Below the pieces are notes generated by a model. That model was not told where the DNA came from, did not search any database, and saw only the letters and a program-made list of their open reading frames with translations. The position numbers and the translations under genes are program-made. DNA of 64,000 nt from Halosegnis longus (GTDB lineage: Archaea; Halobacteriota; Halobacteria; Halobacteriales; Haloarculaceae), in contig NZ_QKNW01000001.1 of the NCBI RefSeq assembly GCF_009663395.1, positions 1,984,001-2,048,000 of the forward strand. The letters are read 5' to 3'. Numbering within the stretch: the stretch's first letter is position 1; the number at the start of each line of letters is the position of its first letter. Of this stretch, positions 5,568 to 53,527 are shown in pieces.

Positions 5568-7964
5568 ATGCAGTATCACGAGGCGGCGACGTGGCTGTTC
5601 GACCTCCGGCGACACTCCCCGCGCACGGGCGTCGAACACACGCGTCACCTCCTCGATTCGCTCGACTCGCCCGACGAGAGCTACGCAGTCGTCCAAATCG
5701 CCGGCTCGAACGGCAAAGGCTCGACGGCCGCTCTCTTGGACCGCGTGCTCAGAGAGGCCGGTCTCGACGTGGGACTGTACACCTCGCCACACCTCTCGGA
5801 CGTGCGCGAACGCGTGCAGGTGAACGGCCGAAAGATGCCGAAACGCGCGCTCGCCGAGTACGTCGAGACGGTCGAACCGTACGTGAGGAATCGCGGCGCT
5901 GCCGGCGAGTCGCCGACCTTCTTCGAGACCGTCACCGGCATGGCGCTGTGGGAGTTCGACAGACAGGACGTTGACGTGGCGATCCTCGAAGTCGGTATCG
6001 GCGGGAAACACGACGCCACCTCCGCGACGAGTTCCGTCGCCAGCGCGGTCACGAGCGTCACGCTCGAACACGCCGACCTGCTCGGGGGGACGGAGGCGGA
6101 AATCGCCCGCGACAAGGCCCACGTCGCGACGGACCGCCCGCTCGTCACCGCAACCACGGGCGAGGCGTTCGACGCGGTCCGCGACCACACCGACGGGAAC
6201 GTGCTCACGGTCGGCGGGGACGGACGCGACGTAACTACGCGCTACGAGGGTCGCGTCGGCATCGAGAGCGACATCTCACTCGCCGGTCCGGACTGGGCGG
6301 TCGAGACGCGACTCGCGATGCTCGGGGCACACCAGGCCGAGAACGCGGGCGTCGCGGCCGCACTCGCCAGACAGGTCGGCGACGAACTCGACACGGACGT
6401 GTCGACCGACGACCTCGCGCGGGGACTCCGGAGCGCCCACTGGCCCGGTCGCTTCGAGGTGATGAGCCGCGAGCCGCTGGTCGTGCTCGACGGCGCACAC
6501 AACCCCGGCAGCTGCGAGACGCTCACCGACACGCTCGGTGAGTTCGACTACGACGACTGCCATCTCGTCGTCGGCGCGATGAGCGACAAGGACCACGCCG
6601 GGATGGCCGCCGCGCTCCCCGAGACCGACGCGGTGTACACCTGCCGGCCCGACTTCGCGCGCGCCGAACGGCCGGAGGTGTTGGCCGAATCGTTCCACGA
6701 CGCGACGGCGTTCGACACCGTCGGCGCGGCCGTCGAGGCGGCGCTCGGTGCCGCCGGCCCGTCGGATGCGGTCGTGGTCTGCGGCTCGCTGTTCGTCGTC
6801 TCCGAGGCGCGAGACCGCTGGACTGCGACGGCGACGCCGAAGCGCATCCGTGACGCCGACGACGCCCGCGCGGCCCTCGATGGGGCGGACGTGCCAGCGT
6901 CCGAACAGCAGCCGGCCGAGCTGGTCCACGAGACCCGGACCCTGACCGTCCGGCCCGCGCAGGCGCGGCGACTCGACACCGCGATGGCGGCCGTGGGCGG
7001 GAGCTGTTCCGTCTCGGGACTCGACGCGCAGGCCCGCGAGCCGGTTTCGGTCGTCCTGTCGGGGACGACCGCGGAGTTCGACGCGCTCGATGCGCGACTG
7101 CGAGAGACCGACCCCGTGCTCGCCGACCGCGTGGCCGACGACGCCGCGACCGATGTCGACTACCCCTGGACCGACCGCACCGCAGTCATGGGCATTCTGA
7201 ACGTGACGCCCGACTCATTCCACGACGGCGGCGAGTACAACGCCGTCGACGCCGCGGTCGAGCGCGCCGAGGAAATCGTCGCCGAGGGCGCGGACATCAT
7301 CGACGTGGGCGGCGAATCCACGCGCCCGGGCGCAGAGCCGGTTCCCGTCGACGAGGAAATCGACCGCCTCGTTCCGGTCATCGAAGAAATTCGCGACCTC
7401 GATGCGCTCATCTCCGTGGACACGCGGCGGGCCGAGACCGCACGCGCGACCCTCGATGCCGGCGCGGACATCATCAACGACGTGTCCGGACTGGCGGACC
7501 CGGGGATGCGCTTCGTCGCCGCCGAGTACGACGTCCCCGTCGTCGTGATGCACTCCATCAACGCCCCCGTCGACCCCGACGTGACCGTCGAGTACGACGA
7601 CGTGGTGAGTGACACGATCGCCCAGCTCCGCGAGCGCATCCTGCTCGCCGAGCGCGCCGGTCTTGCTCGCGAGCAGATTATCGTCGACCCCGGCATCGGG
7701 TTCGGCAAGTCGGCGACAGAGAGCTTCGAACTGTTAGACCGCACGGGTGAGTTCGCCGCGCTCGGCTGTCCGGTCCTCGTGGGCCACTCCCACAAGTCGC
7801 TGTTCGAGCGCGTCGACCACGCGGCCGAGGACCGCTACGAGGCGACCGTCGCCGGCAGCGCCATCGCGGCCGACCGCGGGGCCGATATCGTCCGCGTGCA
7901 CGACGTGGCGGGAAACGTCGCCGCCGTCCGCGTCGCGGAAGAGACCCGCACTCAGGGCTCCTGA
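5568..7964 (+). CDS. FolC-FolP fusion: folylpolyglutamate/dihydrofolate synthase plus dihydropteroate synthase
   Basis: A 798-residue bifunctional folate enzyme. The N-terminal half is a Mur-ligase-type FolC, with the ATP loop AGSNGKGSTAAL near residue 42, YTSPHLSDVRERVQVNG and LDGAHNPGS. The C-terminal part from about residue 540 is dihydropteroate synthase, with MGILNVTPDSFHDGG, GGESTRPGAEPV, DPGIGFGKS and the closing GHSHKSLF. Fusion of these two activities is established in haloarchaea. A linker of about 110 residues between the domains is not part of either classical enzyme. The ATG at 5568 gives a normal FolC start. It converges on the next gene with a 13-base overlap. Confidence 0.95.
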   Translation: MQYHEAATWLFDLRRHSPRTGVEHTRHLLDSLDSPDESYAVVQIAGSNGKGSTAALLDRVLREAGLDVGLYTSPHLSDVRERVQVNGRKMPKRALAEYVETVEPYVRNRGAAGESPTFFETVTGMALWEFDRQDVDVAILEVGIGGKHDATSATSSVASAVTSVTLEHADLLGGTEAEIARDKAHVATDRPLVTATTGEAFDAVRDHTDGNVLTVGGDGRDVTTRYEGRVGIESDISLAGPDWAVETRLAMLGAHQAENAGVAAALARQVGDELDTDVSTDDLARGLRSAHWPGRFEVMSREPLVVLDGAHNPGSCETLTDTLGEFDYDDCHLVVGAMSDKDHAGMAAALPETDAVYTCRPDFARAERPEVLAESFHDATAFDTVGAAVEAALGAAGPSDAVVVCGSLFVVSEARDRWTATATPKRIRDADDARAALDGADVPASEQQPAELVHETRTLTVRPAQARRLDTAMAAVGGSCSVSGLDAQAREPVSVVLSGTTAEFDALDARLRETDPVLADRVADDAATDVDYPWTDRTAVMGILNVTPDSFHDGGEYNAVDAAVERAEEIVAEGADIIDVGGESTRPGAEPVPVDEEIDRLVPVIEEIRDLDALISVDTRRAETARATLDAGADIINDVSGLADPGMRFVAAEYDVPVVVMHSINAPVDPDVTVEYDDVVSDTIAQLRERILLAERAGLAREQIIVDPGIGFGKSATESFELLDRTGEFAALGCPVLVGHSHKSLFERVDHAAEDRYEATVAGSAIAADRGADIVRVHDVAGNVAAVRVAEETRTQGS

Positions 7965-45396: not shown

Positions 45397-48300
45397 ATGA
45401 GCGACGAGACCGAGGACAGAACCATCCTCCTCATCGGCAGTGGACCGATACAGATTGGACAGGCCGCCGAGTTCGACTACTCCGGTGCGCAGGCGTGTCG
45501 CGCACTCCAGGAGGAGGGCGCGCGGGTCGTCCTCGTCAACTCGAATCCGGCCACCATCATGACGGACTCCGAGATGGCCGACAAGGTGTACGTCGAACCC
45601 ATCACCGTCGAGGCGATTTCGGAGATTATCGCGACCGAACAGCCCGACGGCGTCATCGCCGGGCTCGGCGGCCAGACCGGGCTGAACGTCACCGCTGAAC
45701 TCGCCGAAGAGGGCGTCCTCGACGAGTACGACGTGGAGATTATGGGCACGCCGCTGGACACCATCTACGCGACCGAGGACCGCGACCTCTTCCGCCAGCG
45801 CATGGAGGCCATCGGCCAGCCGGTCCCGCAGTCGACGACCATCGAGCTGGACGAGGGCGAATCCGTGACCGACCTCACGACCGGGGGGCTGCAGGACCGC
45901 GTCGACGCGGCGGTCGAGGCGGTCGGCGGGCTGCCGGTCATCTCGCGTACCACCTACACGCTCGGCGGCTCCGGCTCCGGCGTCGTGGACGACATCAACG
46001 AGCTGTACGAGCGCGTCCGCAAGGGGCTGCGCCTCTCGCGCAACTCCGAGGTGCTCATCACCGAGTCCATCTCCGGGTGGGTCGAGTTGGAGTACGAGGT
46101 GATGCGCGACGCCGACGACTCCTGTATCATCATCTGCAACATGGAGAACATCGACCCGATGGGTATCCACACCGGGGAGTCGACGGTGGTCACGCCCTCG
46201 CAGGTCATCCCGGACGAGGGCCACCAGGAGATGCGCGACGCCGCGCTCGGCGTCATCCGCGAACTCGGGATTCAGGGCGGCTGTAACATCCAGTTCGCGT
46301 GGCACGACGACGGCACCCCCGGCGGCGAGTACCGCGTCGTCGAGGTGAACCCTCGCGTCTCCCGCTCCTCTGCGCTCGCCTCGAAGGCGACCGGCTACCC
46401 GATTGCCCGCGTCACCGCGAAGGTCGCCCTCGGGAAGCGGCTCCACGAAATCGACAACGAGATCACCGGCGAGACGACCGCCGCCTTCGAGCCGGCAATC
46501 GACTACGTCGTCACGAAGGTGCCGCGCTGGCCCATCGACAAGTTCGGCGACGTGGAGTTCGAGCTGTCGACGGCGATGAAATCCACCGGCGAGGCGATGT
46601 CCATCGGGCGCACCTTCGAGGAGTCGCTGTTGAAGGCGCTGCGCTCCTCGGAGTACGACCCGGCGGTCGACTTCGCGACGGTGGACGACGAAACCCTCGA
46701 AACGGAGTATCTGACCAAGCCGACGCCGGACCGCCCGTACGCGCTGTTCGAGGCGTTCTATCGCGGCTACGACACCGACGAACTCGTCGCGCTGACCGAC
46801 ATCCACGAGTGGTACGTCGAGCGCTTCGGCAACGTCGCGACGGCGGCGAAGAAGGCGATGGAGGGCGACACCGACGCCGCCACCGCCATCGGCTTCACGA
46901 ACCAGGAGGCGACGGCGCTCGCCGGCGGGGAGTTCAACGACACCCACGCCTCGTGGCTGCCGGCCGCGCTCCACGTCGAGACCGGCGACGAACCCGACGA
47001 GGTTGCCGCCGACGGTGCGGGTGCCGGCGCGAAGGTCGAGACCGTCGAGGAGACGGCCATCGACCGCCGTTTCAAGCAGGTGGACACTTGTGCTGGGGAG
47101 TTTGCCGCATCGACCCCGTACTACTACTCGGCGCGTGAACCCCTCTCGGAGATCTCCCGCGAGGAGGTGAAGGTCGACACCGACGCCGAGAGCGTCGTCG
47201 TGGTCGGCGGCGGCCCCATCCGAATCGGACAGGGCGTCGAGTTCGACTACTGTGCCGTCCACGCCGTGCGCGCCCTCCGCGAGCAGGGGCTCGACGCGCA
47301 CGTCGTCAACAACAACCCCGAGACGGTGTCGACGGATTACGACACCTCCGACGGGCTGTTCTTCGAGCCGGTCACGGCAGAGGAGGTCGCCGACGCCGTA
47401 GAGGCGACGAACGCCGACGGCGTGATGGTGCAGTTCGGCGGGCAAACGTCGGTGAACGTCGGCGAGCCGCTCGAACGCGAACTCGACCGTCGCGGCCTCG
47501 ACTGTGAGATTCTCGGCACGAGCATCGAGGCGATGGACCTCGCGGAGGACCGCGACCGGTTCAACGTCCTGATGGACGAGATGGGCATCGCACAGCCGGA
47601 AGGCGGCACGGCGACCTCCGAGGACGAAGCCTTGGACCTCGCCGACGACCTCGGCTACCCGGTGCTCGTGCGCCCGTCGTACGTGCTCGGCGGCCGCGCG
47701 ATGGACGTGGTCTACTCCGACGCGGAGCTGAAGGAGTACATCGAGGAGGCGGTGCGCGTCTCACCCGACAAGCCGATTCTCGTCGACGAGTTCCTCGCCG
47801 ACGCCGTGGAACTCGACGTGGACGCCGTCGCCGACGGCGAGGACGTGCTCATCGGCGGCGTGATGGAACACGTCGAGTCCGCGGGTGTCCACTCGGGCGA
47901 CTCGGCGTGCATGATTCCGCCCCGCTCCCTGTCGGCCGAAACCCTCGAACGCGTACGCGAGGTGACCGAGGATATCGCCACCGCGCTCGACACCGTCGGT
48001 CTGCTGAACGTTCAGCTCGCGGTTCGCGACGGCGAGGTGTACGTGCTGGAGGCGAATCCGCGCTCCTCGCGGACGGTTCCGTTCGTCTCGAAGGCGACCG
48101 GCGTCCCGATTGCGAAGCTCGCGGCGAAGGTGATGGCCGGCGCGTCGCTCGCCGACCTCGGCGTCCACGAGCAGGTGCCGGAACACGTCTCCGTGAAGGA
48201 GGTCGTCCTGCCGTTCGACCGCCTGCCCGGTTCGGATCCGCGTCTCGGCCCCGAGATGAAGTCCACGGGCGAGGTCATGGGAACCGCTCGCTCGTTCGGG

Positions 48301-48687
48301 AAGGCGTATCTGAAGGCGCAAGACGCCACCGGCAAGCCGATTCCGACGGAGGGCACCGCACTGCTCGACATCGAGACGCTGCGCGGGCTCTCACAGAAGA
48401 ACGAGGACCTCTCGGACATCGAGGAGAGTCTCGCGCGCAACTTCGAGGTGACCACGCCCGACGACTACGACGACCTCGCGAGCGCGGTCCAGCGCGGCGA
48501 ACTCGACTTGATCTGTTCGCGCGACCGCGACCTGCTCGAAACCGCGGTCGAAGAAGAGATTACGTACTTCTCCACGGTGCCGAGTGCCCGCGCCGCGATG
48601 GAAGCCATCGAGACAAAAGACGAACCGCTCGACGTGCTCGCCCTGTCGGAGCGTCCGACAGAGCGCCGCGATTGGGGGACGTTGTAA
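45397..48687 (+). CDS. carB: Carbamoyl-phosphate synthase large subunit
   Basis: This 1096-residue enzyme makes carbamoyl phosphate from bicarbonate, ammonia and two ATP for pyrimidines and arginine. Two homologous ATP-grasp halves each start with a Gly-rich loop (LLIGSGPIQIGQAAEFDY and VVGGGPIRIGQGVEFDY). Each contains the carboxyphosphate/carbamate-phosphate signature (SRTTYTLGGSGSG and VRPSYVLGGRAMD). The last 140 residues form the allosteric methylglyoxal-synthase-like domain (SAVQRGELDLICSRDRDL). Its ammonia comes from CarA, encoded 4 kb away in convergent orientation. The start ATG is preceded by a TATA box and a palindrome shared with carA. Confidence 0.97.
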   Translation: MSDETEDRTILLIGSGPIQIGQAAEFDYSGAQACRALQEEGARVVLVNSNPATIMTDSEMADKVYVEPITVEAISEIIATEQPDGVIAGLGGQTGLNVTAELAEEGVLDEYDVEIMGTPLDTIYATEDRDLFRQRMEAIGQPVPQSTTIELDEGESVTDLTTGGLQDRVDAAVEAVGGLPVISRTTYTLGGSGSGVVDDINELYERVRKGLRLSRNSEVLITESISGWVELEYEVMRDADDSCIIICNMENIDPMGIHTGESTVVTPSQVIPDEGHQEMRDAALGVIRELGIQGGCNIQFAWHDDGTPGGEYRVVEVNPRVSRSSALASKATGYPIARVTAKVALGKRLHEIDNEITGETTAAFEPAIDYVVTKVPRWPIDKFGDVEFELSTAMKSTGEAMSIGRTFEESLLKALRSSEYDPAVDFATVDDETLETEYLTKPTPDRPYALFEAFYRGYDTDELVALTDIHEWYVERFGNVATAAKKAMEGDTDAATAIGFTNQEATALAGGEFNDTHASWLPAALHVETGDEPDEVAADGAGAGAKVETVEETAIDRRFKQVDTCAGEFAASTPYYYSAREPLSEISREEVKVDTDAESVVVVGGGPIRIGQGVEFDYCAVHAVRALREQGLDAHVVNNNPETVSTDYDTSDGLFFEPVTAEEVADAVEATNADGVMVQFGGQTSVNVGEPLERELDRRGLDCEILGTSIEAMDLAEDRDRFNVLMDEMGIAQPEGGTATSEDEALDLADDLGYPVLVRPSYVLGGRAMDVVYSDAELKEYIEEAVRVSPDKPILVDEFLADAVELDVDAVADGEDVLIGGVMEHVESAGVHSGDSACMIPPRSLSAETLERVREVTEDIATALDTVGLLNVQLAVRDGEVYVLEANPRSSRTVPFVSKATGVPIAKLAAKVMAGASLADLGVHEQVPEHVSVKEVVLPFDRLPGSDPRLGPEMKSTGEVMGTARSFGKAYLKAQDATGKPIPTEGTALLDIETLRGLSQKNEDLSDIEESLARNFEVTTPDDYDDLASAVQRGELDLICSRDRDLLETAVEEEITYFSTVPSARAAMEAIETKDEPLDVLALSERPTERRDWGTL

Positions 48688-48707
48688 CCGTAGCCTGGGG
48701 GCCGATG

Positions 48708-49406
48708 TTAGCTCGCGCGCCGCGCGAGCAGGCCGACGCCGAGTAGCCCGGCAACCGCGCCGACGGCGGTGAAGCCGGGTTGGCCGGCTGCGGTCGTTCC
48801 GTCCGGACCGCCCGGACTCGCCGTCACTTCGAGCCCGTCGAGCGACGTGTTCGCGCTCCAGCGGAGCGTCCCGGCCACGTCAGCGTCGGGCGTCGGCATC
48901 GCCGAGAGCCGGTAGCCGTCGGGTGCTGTCACGACGAACTCCCGGTCCGGACTGTAGTCGCTGGCGAACGGCTCCGCGAGCGTCAACTGCTCGCCGTCGA
49001 CCGCCGCGAGATTCGTCCACGTCGCGGAGAGTTCGACCACGCCGGTGTCAGACTCCGTCCGCACGGTCGCGGCCGCGTCCGTTATCTCCATCTGCCGTCC
49101 CGTCTCCTCGCTGGCCGACGACGCGACGCCGGCGAGTCGACTCGCGAACGAGTCGCGCATCTCGTTGACCTCCGTCTGGTTCGCCTGCAGCGTCTCGAAC
49201 GCCTCGCGCTCGCTGTTCGTCGTCAAATCGAACGTTACTCGCAGCGTCACCTCGGCGTCGCCGTCGGCCGCGAGGTCGACGACGAACGCCTCACCGGGAT
49301 GGGAGTCGGCCGCCGCGGTGCCTGCGCCGCTCGCGACGACCGCGACGACCAACACGGCGAGACCGGCTCGCCGCAGCGCGGTTCCGACTGTGGTGTCACG
49401 GCTCAC
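48708..49406 (-). CDS. PGF-CTERM-type surface protein with DUF7345-like outside domain
   Basis: This 232-residue secreted protein has an N-terminal signal (AGLAVLVVAVVASGAGTAAA) and a roughly 150-residue outside domain. The C-terminal GQPGFTAVGAVAGLLGVGLL ARRAS carries the PGF motif, a hydrophobic helix and Arg, which is the archaeosortase-processed PGF-CTERM sorting tail. The outside domain aligns with that of the regulator at 51442 (EREAFETLQ vs ERRAYEEFQ; ETGRQM vs ATGREM; PTPDADVAGTLRW vs PTPDSRDDGTVRW). Its ATG overlaps the stop codon of the acidic protein by four bases, so the two are one operon. Function unknown. Confidence 0.82.
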   Translation of the reverse strand: MSRDTTVGTALRRAGLAVLVVAVVASGAGTAAADSHPGEAFVVDLAADGDAEVTLRVTFDLTTNSEREAFETLQANQTEVNEMRDSFASRLAGVASSASEETGRQMEITDAAATVRTESDTGVVELSATWTNLAAVDGEQLTLAEPFASDYSPDREFVVTAPDGYRLSAMPTPDADVAGTLRWSANTSLDGLEVTASPGGPDGTTAAGQPGFTAVGAVAGLLGVGLLARRAS

Positions 49407-51247
49407 TGTTCCGTCTGGGTCGCTGTTTCGGTTTCCTCGTCGGCTTCCGTCTCGTCGTCCTCCTCGTCCTCGTCGTCGTCCTCTTCATCCTCTTCGTCAT
49501 CTTCGTCCTCGTCTTCGGTCTCTTCTTCGTCCTCGTCGTCATCGCCCGCGTTCGCGTGGTCCGGCGGTCCGTTTTCGCCGTCCTCGTCACGCTCGGGGGC
49601 GCGGTCGCTTCGATTATTCTCGCCCTCGCCGCGGTCGTCCTCCTCGTCCTCGTCGTCTGCATCATCGTCGCTGTGACCGGGCGCCTCGTCGCTGCGGCCG
49701 CGGTCGCCGTTGTCACCAGCGTGTGGCCCCTCCGTCATCGAGAGGGTCCCGTCGGTGAGTTCGTACTCGAACTCCGCCTCGAACTCGCCTTTCACGATTT
49801 CGACTTCGAGCGACTCCGTGCCGTTCGGCACGGCAAAGGAGACGGTGCCGTTCGCGTCGGTCGTGCCGACCTGTTCGTCGTTCGCGTAGACGGACGCGCC
49901 GGCCACGCCGCTGCCCTCGTACTGGACCGTCGCGGTGACCGTGTCGCCGTCGAGCGTCGCGTCCGCGGTCAGGTTCCGGTACACCTCGTCGTCGTCCTCG
50001 CCGAGCTCGAACTCGAGTTCACCCTCGCCGGCTTCGAGTTCGACCTCGCCGCGCTCGGGGAGCGTCACCGACACGGTGCCGTCCGCGTCGGTCGTACCGA
50101 CCGATTCGCCGTTGAGCGTCACCGTCACGTTCGACGCCGGCTCGCCGTCTGCCAGCGCGCGGACGGTGATGGTGCTGTTCGGTGCGATGTCGCCCTCGGT
50201 GACGACGAGCGCGAGCTCGCGTTCCTCCTCCTCGTCGTCCTCGCTCTCGTCGTCGTCACCGCGCTCGCCGGCTTCCTCGGGCGGGCCGCGTCCGGGGTTC
50301 TCCTCGCTCGCCTCGTTGGCGTTGCCCGGACCTTTCTGCCGCGTGTTGGATTCCAGCTCAACGACCGTGCCCGCGGAGCCGTCGACGGTCACGCTGGCCT
50401 GTCCGACGGTCGTGTTCGTGTTCACGTGGAAGCGGAACTCGTAGGTGCCGTCCTCGCTGTCGATGCGGCTGTTCACGAGCCGCCACTGCTGGTCGACCGG
50501 CGGCAGCGCGTCGCGTGCGGTGTCGAGTGCCGCGCTCTGATTGACGGTCAGGTTCGCGGACTCGTCGCCCGGCCGATTCAGCTCGCGCGACTGCTCGCCG
50601 TCCTCGCTTTCCACCTCGATGGAGAGTCCGTTCGCCGATTCGATTTCGACCTCGCCCTCGCTCTCGCCGGTGAACTGCTGGAGCAGCGCCGACGCGCCCG
50701 CGCCGCTGACGCCGTCGAGGTCATCGACCGCGCCGTTGAGCGCGGACTGATTGAATCCCGCCGCGCGGAGTTCGAGCCCCGAGAAGGCGTTCGAACGCTC
50801 CGACAGCGCCTCGTAGGAGGCGAGCACGTTCGACGCCCGAGAGTTCAGCGTCGCGATGCGCTGTGCGTACTCGGATTTCGTCAGCTCGCCCTCCTCGTAG
50901 GCCTCGGTGGCTGTCTCGTACGCCTCAGCGATGCGGTTTGCACGCTCTTCGAGCGCGGCTGCTCGGTTCGCGAGTGCCTGTGCACGCGCTTCCTCGCTCG
51001 CGTTATCGTACTCTACCTCGAACTCGGTCTCTTCGACCTCGCTCTGTACGTCGTCGCTCGTCACCGCCAGCACCGTCGAGAGCTGCTGGCCGGTCGTGAC
51101 GTTGACGCTGCTGTTGTCGTCCTGTTGCAGTTCGGTCAGTTGGTCTGTGGTCGATGCCTCCGACGGGGTCACTGCCCCAACGCCGCCCACGGCACCCGCG
51201 GTGAGTGCGAGTGTCGCGAGCAGTATCGCGGTCAGTTTGCGAACCAT
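49403..51247 (-). CDS. Secreted protein with Ig-like/PEGA-type repeats and extremely acidic tail (DUF7096-like)
   Basis: The 614-residue secreted protein has a signal peptide at MVRKLTAILLATLALTAGAV. The N-terminal half is a helical domain (residues about 85-165, ALANRAAALEERANRIAEAY) of the DUF7096 type (number from memory). Two carboxypeptidase-regulatory-like repeats follow: NVTVTLNGESVGTTDADGTV and GASVYANDEQVGTTDANGTV. The last 110 residues are nearly all Asp, Glu, Gly and Arg. Several Asn-x-Thr/Ser sequons suit S-layer-type N-glycosylation. There is no PGF-CTERM or transmembrane anchor at the end. The start ATG at 51247 is preceded by a palindrome. Confidence 0.78.
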   Translation of the reverse strand: MVRKLTAILLATLALTAGAVGGVGAVTPSEASTTDQLTELQQDDNSSVNVTTGQQLSTVLAVTSDDVQSEVEETEFEVEYDNASEEARAQALANRAAALEERANRIAEAYETATEAYEEGELTKSEYAQRIATLNSRASNVLASYEALSERSNAFSGLELRAAGFNQSALNGAVDDLDGVSGAGASALLQQFTGESEGEVEIESANGLSIEVESEDGEQSRELNRPGDESANLTVNQSAALDTARDALPPVDQQWRLVNSRIDSEDGTYEFRFHVNTNTTVGQASVTVDGSAGTVVELESNTRQKGPGNANEASEENPGRGPPEEAGERGDDDESEDDEEEERELALVVTEGDIAPNSTITVRALADGEPASNVTVTLNGESVGTTDADGTVSVTLPERGEVELEAGEGELEFELGEDDDEVYRNLTADATLDGDTVTATVQYEGSGVAGASVYANDEQVGTTDANGTVSFAVPNGTESLEVEIVKGEFEAEFEYELTDGTLSMTEGPHAGDNGDRGRSDEAPGHSDDDADDEDEEDDRGEGENNRSDRAPERDEDGENGPPDHANAGDDDEDEEETEDEDEDDEEDEEDDDEDEEDDETEADEETETATQTEQ

Positions 51248-51258
51248 ATCTCCCCCGA

Positions 51259-51268
51259 GTAGCGCTAC
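51259..51268. promoter_or_regulatory. Palindrome before the secreted-protein operon
   Basis: GTAGCGCTAC is a perfect 10-base palindrome 12 bases before the ATG at 51247. Just upstream on the same strand is a TATA-like GATATGG. The position suits a repressor or activator site for the minus-strand operon. Confidence 0.45.
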
Positions 51269-51319
51269 CCATATCAACCGGGTCGACGCTGGCGGCGATT
51301 TGCGGTCGATTTCGGACCT

Positions 51320-51339
51320 TTGCAGACGCTTGCAGACGG
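51320..51339. promoter_or_regulatory. Tandem 10-bp direct repeat in the divergent control region
   Basis: TTGCAGACG occurs twice, at 51320-51328 and 51330-51338, one helical turn apart, in the 194-base gap between the secreted-protein operon and the membrane regulator. Repeats on one DNA face are typical of a multimeric regulator binding site. Confidence 0.5.
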
Positions 51340-51411
51340 TTGTACCCCGTCGCCTGCTGTCGATTTTGCTAACCTATCAACGAGGCGTTGTTTCCCTGCG
51401 TGCGTCTCAAG

Positions 51412-51419
51412 ATATTTAT
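51412..51419 (+). promoter_or_regulatory. TATA box for the membrane regulator
   Basis: ATATTTAT is centred about 26 bases before the ATG at 51442; the message is probably leaderless. Confidence 0.6.
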
Positions 51420-51441
51420 CCCGGACGTTAGTATCTCGCCC

Positions 51442-52467
51442 ATGAGACGGCTGGTCGTCGTGGCGACGCTCCTGCTCGTGGCCAGCACCATTGTCGTCGG
51501 GGGCGTCCAGCAGACGCCCGATGCCGACAACACCGTCACGCGCATCGCGGTCCAAGCGGACGGCGACGCCGAGTGGACGGTCACCGTCCGGACGCGGCTC
51601 GAAACCGACGAAGAGCGCCGGGCGTACGAGGAGTTCCAGTCGCGGTTCAGGGAGAACACCTCCGAGTACGTCTCGCCGTTCCGCACCCGCATCGAGGGCG
51701 TCGTCGCGTCGGGTGCGAACGCGACAGGCCGGGAGATGCGCGCGCAAAACGTCACGGCCGCGACCGACATCCGCCAACTGCCCCGCCGGTGGGGCGTCGT
51801 CACCTACTCGTTCACGTGGACGCAGTTTGCAGCGACTGACGGGGAGAGCCTCGCCGCCGGTGACGTGTTCGCGGGCGGCTTCTTCATCGGCGAGAACGAC
51901 ACGCTCGTCGTCACGACGCCGCCGGAGTACACGCTCGCGAGCGTCGAGCCGACCCCCGACAGCCGCGACGACGGGACGGTCCGGTGGCGCGGGCAACGCG
52001 ACTTTGCCGACAGCCGCCCGGCACTCCGATTCGACCCCGTCCCCGGAGGGACGACAGCACCGGCCGACACCGGTGACGGACTGCCACTTACGGCGCTTGC
52101 AGGACTATTCGCCTTCGCTGTCGCAGCACTCGGCGTCGGCGCGTATCTGTACTACGGGAGAGACGAGACGGCTGGGGGCGAGCCGTCGGGAGCCGAGCAA
52201 CAGAACTCGGAGCCGGCACTGAATGGCGGGCCGGACCAAGCGTCAGGAGCAGCGGCGGCCGCGTCGGACCCGACGCTCACGGACGGTGAGCGCGTCGAGC
52301 AGTTGCTCGCAGACAACGACGGCCGGCTGAAACAGGGCGACATCGCGGAGGCGTTCGGGTGGTCGGCCTCGAAGACCTCTCGCGTGGTCTCACAGCTATC
52401 CGACGAAGACCGGGTAGAGAAGTTGCGTATCGGGCGCGAGAACGTCGTCTCGCTGCCCGAAGAGTAG
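51442..52467 (+). CDS. Membrane-anchored one-component regulator: DUF7345-like sensor plus winged helix
   Basis: A 341-residue protein with a signal/anchor at the N-terminus (RRLVVVATLLLVASTIVVGG) and an outside domain of about 160 residues. It has one transmembrane helix (LPLTALAGLFAFAVAALGVG, about residues 214-240) and an inside C-terminal winged helix (DGERVEQLLADNDGRLKQGD, then SKTSRVVSQLSDEDRVEKL). The outside domain is paralogous to the PGF-CTERM protein at 48708. Architecture and position suggest an envelope-sensing regulator of the divergent operon (inference). A similar layout is known in haloarchaea as DUF7345/DUF7343 (numbers from memory). It converges on carA with one base between stops. 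Confidence 0.8.
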   Translation: MRRLVVVATLLLVASTIVVGGVQQTPDADNTVTRIAVQADGDAEWTVTVRTRLETDEERRAYEEFQSRFRENTSEYVSPFRTRIEGVVASGANATGREMRAQNVTAATDIRQLPRRWGVVTYSFTWTQFAATDGESLAAGDVFAGGFFIGENDTLVVTTPPEYTLASVEPTPDSRDDGTVRWRGQRDFADSRPALRFDPVPGGTTAPADTGDGLPLTALAGLFAFAVAALGVGAYLYYGRDETAGGEPSGAEQQNSEPALNGGPDQASGAAAAASDPTLTDGERVEQLLADNDGRLKQGDIAEAFGWSASKTSRVVSQLSDEDRVEKLRIGRENVVSLPEE

Positions 52468-52468
52468 A

Positions 52469-53527
52469 TTACGCCGTCAGCTCGGCGTCCTCGGCGAGCG
52501 CGAGCACGTCGTCGAAGAAGTCGAGCGAGTCGTTCGGCCCGGGGTTCGCCTCGGGGTGGTACTGGCGCGTAATCACGTCGAGGTCGTCGCTCTCCAGCCC
52601 CTCGGGGGTGTCGTCGTTGACGTTCACCTGCGTGACTTCGAGCCGGCCGGGTTCGGAGACGGTGTAGCCGTGGTTCTGCGTCGTCATGACGACGCGGCCC
52701 GAACGGAGGTCGCGCACCGGCTGATTGACGCCGCGGTGACCGAAGTCCATCTTCTCGGTCTCGCCGTCGAGCGCGCCGGCGATGACCTGCTGGCCCAGAC
52801 AGATGCCCGCGAGCGGCACCTCGCCGACGAACTCCTCGACGAGCGCGTGGGCGGCGGTGAAGTTCTCCGGGTCGCCCGGTCCGTTCGAGATGAACAGGAT
52901 GTCAGGATCGAGATGTTCCACGTCGGCGGCCGTCGCATCGTACGGGAGGATGTCGACGACGGCGCCGCGCTCGACGAGCGACGAGGTGATGGAGCCTTTC
53001 GCGCCACAGTCCACGAGCGCGACGTGTGGACCGTCGCCGTTCGGGTTGTGCGTGTGTCGCTCCGCGACGGAGACCTGCTGGCCGATGTCGGTGTGTTCGC
53101 TCATCCCTTTACACTCCGAGAGCTCCGCGCGGGCGGCTTCCTCGGTGGCGTCGGGACCAGCGGCGATACCGCACTTCATCGCGCCCTCCTCGCGGATGCC
53201 GGTGACGAGGTCGCGGGTGTCGAGGTGGTCGATAGCCGGGACGTCCTCCTCGGTGAGCCACTCGGCCACGTCGTCGGTGAGTTCGCGCGCGACCACCGCA
53301 CGCGGGTGGACGCGGTCGGACTCGAACCGCTCCTCGCGGACGCCGTAGTTCCCGATGAGCGGGTACGAGAAGGTGAGCACCTGCTCCTCGTAGGAGGGGT
53401 CGGTCAGCGACTCCTCGTAGCCGGTGTATGCGGTCGTGAAGACGAGTTCTCCGCGGGTGGTCCCCGGTGCGCGACTGCGGGCCTCCACCACACGGCCACC
53501 CTCCAGCGCGACGTATGCCGTTTCCAT
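52469..53527 (-). CDS. carA: Carbamoyl-phosphate synthase small subunit (glutamine amidotransferase)
   Basis: This 352-residue subunit hydrolyses glutamine and channels ammonia to CarB. The N-terminal half is the CPSase small domain (GELVFTTAYTGYEESLTDPS). The C-terminal half is class I amidotransferase, with nucleophile Cys243 in PLAGICLGQQVIAGA and the His-Glu pair in QYHPEANPGPNDSL. The start ATG at 53527 is immediately preceded by a 13-bp palindrome that also appears upstream of carB. It is divergent from an Lrp/AsnC regulator and is separated from carB by the surface-protein module. Confidence 0.97.
   Translation of the reverse strand: METAYVALEGGRVVEARSRAPGTTRGELVFTTAYTGYEESLTDPSYEEQVLTFSYPLIGNYGVREERFESDRVHPRAVVARELTDDVAEWLTEEDVPAIDHLDTRDLVTGIREEGAMKCGIAAGPDATEEAARAELSECKGMSEHTDIGQQVSVAERHTHNPNGDGPHVALVDCGAKGSITSSLVERGAVVDILPYDATAADVEHLDPDILFISNGPGDPENFTAAHALVEEFVGEVPLAGICLGQQVIAGALDGETEKMDFGHRGVNQPVRDLRSGRVVMTTQNHGYTVSEPGRLEVTQVNVNDDTPEGLESDDLDVITRQYHPEANPGPNDSLDFFDDVLALAEDAELTA

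Follow-up and report, generated by a model that had tools for sequence, protein, structure and literature searches.

Bacterial regulators of the ToxR/CadC type control genes from the membrane as single-pass proteins, often together with a partner protein. A known class of transmembrane transcription regulators (TTRs) includes archaeal members (PMC10269533, PMC6396743); in a survey of this class, the single-pass form is the commonest and archaeal genomes encode about four TTRs each (PMC10269533). ArnR and ArnR1 of Sulfolobus acidocaldarius are membrane-bound one-component activators of a surface-structure operon, with sites upstream of the B recognition element (BRE); ArnR consists of an N-terminal helix-turn-helix (HTH), a HAMP-like and a sensing domain and two C-terminal transmembrane helices, and works from inverted-repeat boxes within -43 to -84 (PMC6396743). 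EarA of Methanococcus maripaludis, for which the available description mentions no membrane anchor, DUF7345 domain or linked partner, uses several short repeated sites (four 6-bp consensus sequences, not 10-bp-phased) directly upstream of the BRE of a surface-structure operon, with proposed recruitment of TFB (PMC5512572). Here we analyze a 64,000-nucleotide stretch of the Halosegnis longus genome (contig NZ_QKNW01000001.1, positions 1,984,001 to 2,048,000; hereafter, the window), in which the gene for a predicted membrane regulator diverges from an operon encoding a large acidic secreted protein related to the DUF7096 family and a surface protein with a PGF-CTERM tail. The regulator is probably a haloarchaeal membrane-bound one-component protein that drives this one adjacent surface-protein operon from a conserved repeat array.

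A preliminary description of the window had described the regulator as an outside domain linked through one membrane helix to a winged helix inside, and the Pfam matches and the AlphaFold model agree on this architecture. Residues 34-163 (51541-51930) match DUF7345 (PF24036; E 2.5e-37, 128.4 bits vs gathering score 27.5) and residues 279-339 match DUF7343 (PF24034; E 2e-26, 92.1 bits vs gathering score 27.6), and in the model a well-defined ectodomain (residues 29-200, predicted local distance difference test score about 96) is followed by a single membrane-type helix (216-240), which a low-confidence linker connects to a winged helix (281-338). The start at 51442 is supported by the TATA-like ATATTTAT about 26 bp upstream, and the transcript may be leaderless. 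Searches by sequence for solved relatives of the ectodomain returned none that was convincing; its fold matches (sheets of the FMO protein; LppM of Mycobacterium tuberculosis, TMt 0.45) were weak, with low TM-scores, and were not used.

The predicted topology of the regulator is opposite to that of ToxR/CadC-type proteins, in which the DNA-binding domain is N-terminal and inside, and the outside domains are probably unrelated. With the TTRs, it shares the predicted membrane-embedded state, the DNA-binding domain inside and the lack of a separate kinase, and it combines a predicted DNA-binding domain and at least one transmembrane helix in one protein; for transcriptional control from the membrane upon an outside signal, the conserved promoter array reported below is indirect evidence. 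The available survey text on the class treats neither DUF7345 nor a linked secreted partner (PMC10269533); the regulator has a conserved DUF7096 partner, an optional paralogous surface protein and a 10-bp-phased array. The ArnR-family architecture (N-terminal HTH, HAMP-like domain, two C-terminal transmembrane helices) was not found in the regulator by Pfam or in the AlphaFold model: unlike ArnR, it has an N-terminal ectodomain, one transmembrane helix and a C-terminal winged helix, and its putative site consists of direct repeats. Haloferax CsmR, which is small (about 13 kDa) and of the winged-helix type, was set aside as not comparable. The literature searched, which covered few subscription papers, yielded no published work on DUF7345, DUF7343 or DUF7096, nor the combination of a DUF7345 regulator, a DUF7096 partner, an optional DUF7345-PGF protein and a 10-bp-phased operator. 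The statement of the preliminary description that no characterized system has this form is thus fair for these families, but membrane-bound one-component regulators as such are already known, in archaea too (PMC10269533, PMC6396743).

The PGF-CTERM gene had also been placed in an operon with the large acidic secreted protein, and this holds: its first 4 bp are also the last of the acidic gene (49403-49406), and the acidic protein, starting at 51247, combines a signal-like N-terminus with a tail rich in Asp and Glu. This protein scores 23.0 bits against the DUF7096 (PF23379) profile (gathering score 27), and its aligned relatives in loci L036, L041 and L046 score 28.3, 28.0 and 34.8; judging from the alignment, it is clearly homologous to them. 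DUF7096-like matches were collected with an alignment of the N-terminal domain of the acidic protein (124 usable matches, 60 haloarchaeal genomes), and 82 of the 124 lie at most 4 kb from a DUF7345 frame of at least 300 amino acids. Among these linked pairs, 51 are divergent, 29 are same-strand with the regulator first, two are same-strand with DUF7096 first, and none is convergent. The divergent layout emphasized in the preliminary description is accordingly real in the window but is only one of two arrangements overall, the other being same-strand. PGF-type genes were counted in six-frame scans of the fetched loci, some of which had been fetched via the PGF-type gene itself; such a gene is missing from 30 of the 44 linked regulator and DUF7096 loci, and in every fetched locus that has both it lies downstream of DUF7096 on the same strand. 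The proposed pairing of the regulator with the PGF-CTERM protein therefore stands as a recurring module, the two genes being neighbors in other haloarchaea too, but not as the core of it: the commonest and most constant partner of the regulator is the DUF7096 protein, to which the PGF-type gene is an optional addition. The DUF7345 family itself is present in at least 58 of 59 haloarchaeal relatives, Haloferax volcanii being another carrier; of the remaining genomes drawn from across the phylum, only a minority has it.

In the window the three genes are flanked by carB (45397-48687, +) and carA (52469-53527, -), which are unrelated in function to the module, and one could suppose a chance neighborhood of unrelated surface genes. 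The probability of this is negligible, with the linkage just described and the trio recurring in several genera and contexts: beside carA/carB in Halosegnis-like genomes, beside A-ATPase genes in Halorubrum, beside argG/argH on the same strand in Halorientalis and other Haloarculaceae, beside pdxT/hisE-like genes in Halomicroarcula, and also in Halobellus. The neighbors change between genomes while the module stays, and the adjoining genes are thus incidental.

Evidence that was new relative to the preliminary description comes from the DNA between the divergent genes, where a conserved 10-bp-phased array indicates dedicated control of the acidic/PGF operon. Four direct repeats stand 53-96 bp upstream of the start of the acidic gene, with about 25 bp between them and the downstream TATA-like element of the operon and about 70-110 bp between them and that of the regulator. 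When the 130 bp upstream of a gene are searched, lag by lag, for the best self-match over 30 bases, the array reaches 22/30 at lag 10, a value attained by none of 5000 dinucleotide shuffles and nowhere else in the 64 kb. An exact two-unit match occurs once in the whole 2.77-Mb genome, at this array, and scattered single matches with one mismatch are at the control level, so that a regulon beyond the acidic/PGF operon is unsupported.

Loci of either gene arrangement conserve the array at lag 10. Aligned divergent intergenic regions share a repeated TTGCRGAC-like unit, and same-strand loci carry a different unit, TTAATCSGG-like, before DUF7096. The mean lag-10 score is 17.4 for 36 DUF7096 upstream regions vs 11.9 (standard deviation 2.1) for 485 other upstream regions, and the same comparison gave no excess at lags 7-9 or 11-15. 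In a later-fetched set (20 loci, 19 of them scored), the respective values are 15.3 and 12.0 (p=6.6e-5), whereas the nominal significance at lags 11 and 13 (p about 0.04 each) is lost on correction for nine lags. The upstream region of the regulator itself in this set, which consists mostly of same-strand loci, scores 12.2, as the controls do. Because the array precedes DUF7096 and not the regulator, the DUF7096 operon is its most likely target, whether the genes are divergent or on the same strand. Several low scores stem from doubtful start codons assigned by a simple gene caller, and these loci were kept in the set; an array-like match in L085, a single pair in an apparent coding sequence, was rejected.

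Binding of the array by the linked regulator is supported by the repeat unit changing together with the type of recognition helix: in this region of the winged helix, the divergent clade has WSxSKTSR, which goes with CGNYYGMAA-like units, and the same-strand clade has WT(D/A/E)AKTSQ, which goes with TTAATCSGG-like units. Another factor, for example the neighboring Lrp protein, whose gene adjoins carA in the window, or a TFB variant, might occupy the array while the DUF7345 regulator acts elsewhere; we consider this quite improbable, as the array accompanies the module where carA and Lrp are absent (beside argGH and A-ATPase genes) and has a different unit in each of the two clades of regulators.

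MarR/ArsR-like winged helices, the type predicted here, are often repressors. With the array situated between two divergent promoters, the regulator could thus be a repressor that releases the array once its outside domain registers a ligand or damage to the envelope. However, the array stops, on the upstream side, about 25 bp short of the target TATA-like element and is at least about 70 bp from that of the regulator, whereas, according to the EarA study, archaeal repressors usually overlap or follow promoter elements and activators typically use sites upstream of the BRE (PMC5512572). Repression accordingly appears unlikely, and the placement of the array upstream of the TATA-like box fits an activator site; the position of the ArnR boxes (PMC6396743) is a parallel case.

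The preliminary description held that the protein encoded at 48708 has the same outside domain as the regulator and a PGF-CTERM tail; both points stand, the two DUF7345 domains aligning with 37% identity (E=6e-23) and both profiles scoring above cut-off. By sequence, the protein has a C-terminal PGF motif, a predicted transmembrane helix and a basic tail, and the same genome encodes archaeosortase A (314.6 bits vs cut-off 75). It thus resembles known PGF-CTERM/archaeosortase A surface proteins but, unlike these, carries the sensor domain of a regulator and is encoded in an apparently regulated operon. When 51 DUF7345 domains were placed in a tree, the 17 short domains of the surface type grouped in a single clade (support 100/96). 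The module regulators lie outside it and fall into two groups, one of the divergent and one of the same-strand type; the surface copy therefore represents an old and separate line rather than a recent local duplicate.

The preliminary description suggested that the regulator senses the surface protein or its ligand. Sensing of the PGF-CTERM protein is plausible, and a natural hypothesis would be that the shared domain mediates homotypic contact or competition for a common ligand, for example the DUF7096 protein. Alternatively, the domain could be shared by ancestry only, the regulator sensing the membrane state or a small ligand and the PGF-CTERM protein being a further effector that makes no contact with it. 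This is a substantial possibility, although we do not favor it: the PGF-type gene is lacking at most loci and the two DUF7345 types are deeply separated, but nearly all PGF-type genes found sit just downstream of DUF7096, in a sample partly fetched via the PGF-type gene.

From what is established (the architecture and homology of the proteins, the linkage of their genes and the conserved phased array in front of the operon), the following mechanism can be proposed for the activator. The DUF7345 domain would lie outside the membrane, with one helix and a flexible linker tethering the winged helix inside, and the regulator would bind the four-fold array and directly switch on the acidic/PGF operon from the membrane. 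A 10-bp repeat is about one helical turn, and therefore the bound subunits would all face the same side of the DNA, an arrangement that would suit proteins held in one membrane plane. The operon would yield the secreted DUF7096 protein together with a surface protein that bears the outside domain of the regulator and probably feeds back on it. A closed envelope-homeostasis loop, in which tethered regulators on the phased DNA activate the operon and its PGF-anchored product switches the regulator off, either through contact with the ectodomain or through sequestration of the DUF7096 protein bound by both, is a rather doubtful extension.

Several observations weigh against this proposal. The PGF-type partner is absent from most loci, and its feedback cannot be general; the core circuit can exist without this gene, as many loci have none. 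The correspondence between repeat and helix type, as seen in the sequences, is confounded by ancestry, with two main clades only. Finally, some related promoters have no clear array: those of the paralog near etf (L064, L073), and also those of L048 and L079.

The genes, strands and coordinates given in the preliminary description were re-checked and are correct; the features are listed in Table 1. The alpha/beta region of the acidic protein has no Pfam match, and its other matches were taken as generic: those of the DUF7096 domain by sequence, to aldehyde dehydrogenase and coiled coils, as helices, and those by fold, to Fc receptors, as beta sandwiches.

Table 1. Coordinates in the window of the module genes, their domains and the promoter elements.
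Feature	Position	Strand	Basis or remark
Regulator	51442-52467	+	Signal-like N-terminus, DUF7345 ectodomain, one transmembrane helix, DUF7343 winged helix
Regulator ectodomain, model residues 29-200	51526-52041	+	Pfam match, AlphaFold model
Regulator transmembrane helix, residues 216-240	52087-52161	+	AlphaFold model, sequence
DUF7343 winged HTH, residues 279-339, MarR/ArsR-like fold	52276-52458	+	Pfam, model, fold comparison
TATA-like element of regulator gene, ATATTTAT	51412-51419	+	Predicted from sequence and position
Putative operator, four 10-bp direct repeats (minus-strand reading), CGTCTGCAAG CGTCTGCAAA GGTCCGAAAT CGACCGCAAA	51300-51343	-	
TATA-like element of acidic/PGF operon, TTGATATG	51270-51277	-	Predicted; about 26 bp from ATG
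Large acidic protein, secreted, a divergent relative of the DUF7096 family	49403-51247	-	
DUF7096-like helical domain of acidic protein, residues 32-193	50669-51154	-	Pfam, alignment, model
Alpha/beta region of acidic protein, residues 198-304	50336-50656	-	Model; possibly PepSY-like
Two beta-sandwich (Ig/carboxypeptidase-regulatory-like) domains of acidic protein, residues 345-510	49718-50215	-	
Asp/Glu-rich tail of acidic protein, residues 516-614	49406-49702	-	
PGF-CTERM surface protein with DUF7345 domain	48708-49406	-	
DUF7345 domain of PGF-CTERM protein, residues 43-165	48912-49280	-	Pfam E 8.5e-26, 91.1 bits vs gathering 27.5
PGF-CTERM sorting tail, residues 205-230	48717-48794	-	TIGR04126 29 bits vs 24.5; above both curated cut-offs

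The module splits carA from carB, which point toward each other (45397-53527). A third DUF7345 protein of the genome, a DUF7345-DUF7343 regulator (L064:4643-7145; G000:C1 about 1440642-1443144), adjoins an electron-transfer-flavoprotein-like gene and has its own divergent DUF7096-like gene, without a 10-bp array; a divergent pair of this kind is present in most haloarchaeal relatives. DUF7096 genes without a linked regulator occur in L065, L066 and L069-L072, and the upstream regions of L069-L072 still contain TTGAACGG/ATTAAACG-like units with a spacing of about 10 bp, which may be remote targets for a regulator of this kind. Several same-strand loci (L037, L056 and relatives) have, after the regulator gene and before DUF7096, a CCGCAGGACTGCGG-like inverted repeat that is perhaps a terminator or a second site. 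In the Halosegnis rubeus locus L053 (same as L033), a close counterpart of the window locus, an in-frame TAG in the PGF-CTERM gene (7001-7720) stands where a tryptophan codon is conserved, and the frame, including the PGF tail, is intact after it, which points to a recent pseudogene or a sequence error. The short DUF7345 protein in Halorubrum and one other genome (L060, L062, L063, L041) has a hydrophobic stretch and a basic tail at its C-terminus but no PGF motif.

It is still largely an open question how haloarchaea monitor their cell surface, and few archaeal membrane-bound regulators have a defined target site. The module, which is spread across haloarchaeal families, offers a specific regulator, a candidate operator and an operon, and Haloferax volcanii, a carrier of DUF7345, has routine genetics. 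The 10-bp phasing suggests a simple physical rule by which membrane-tethered DNA-binding proteins may be lined up on one promoter.

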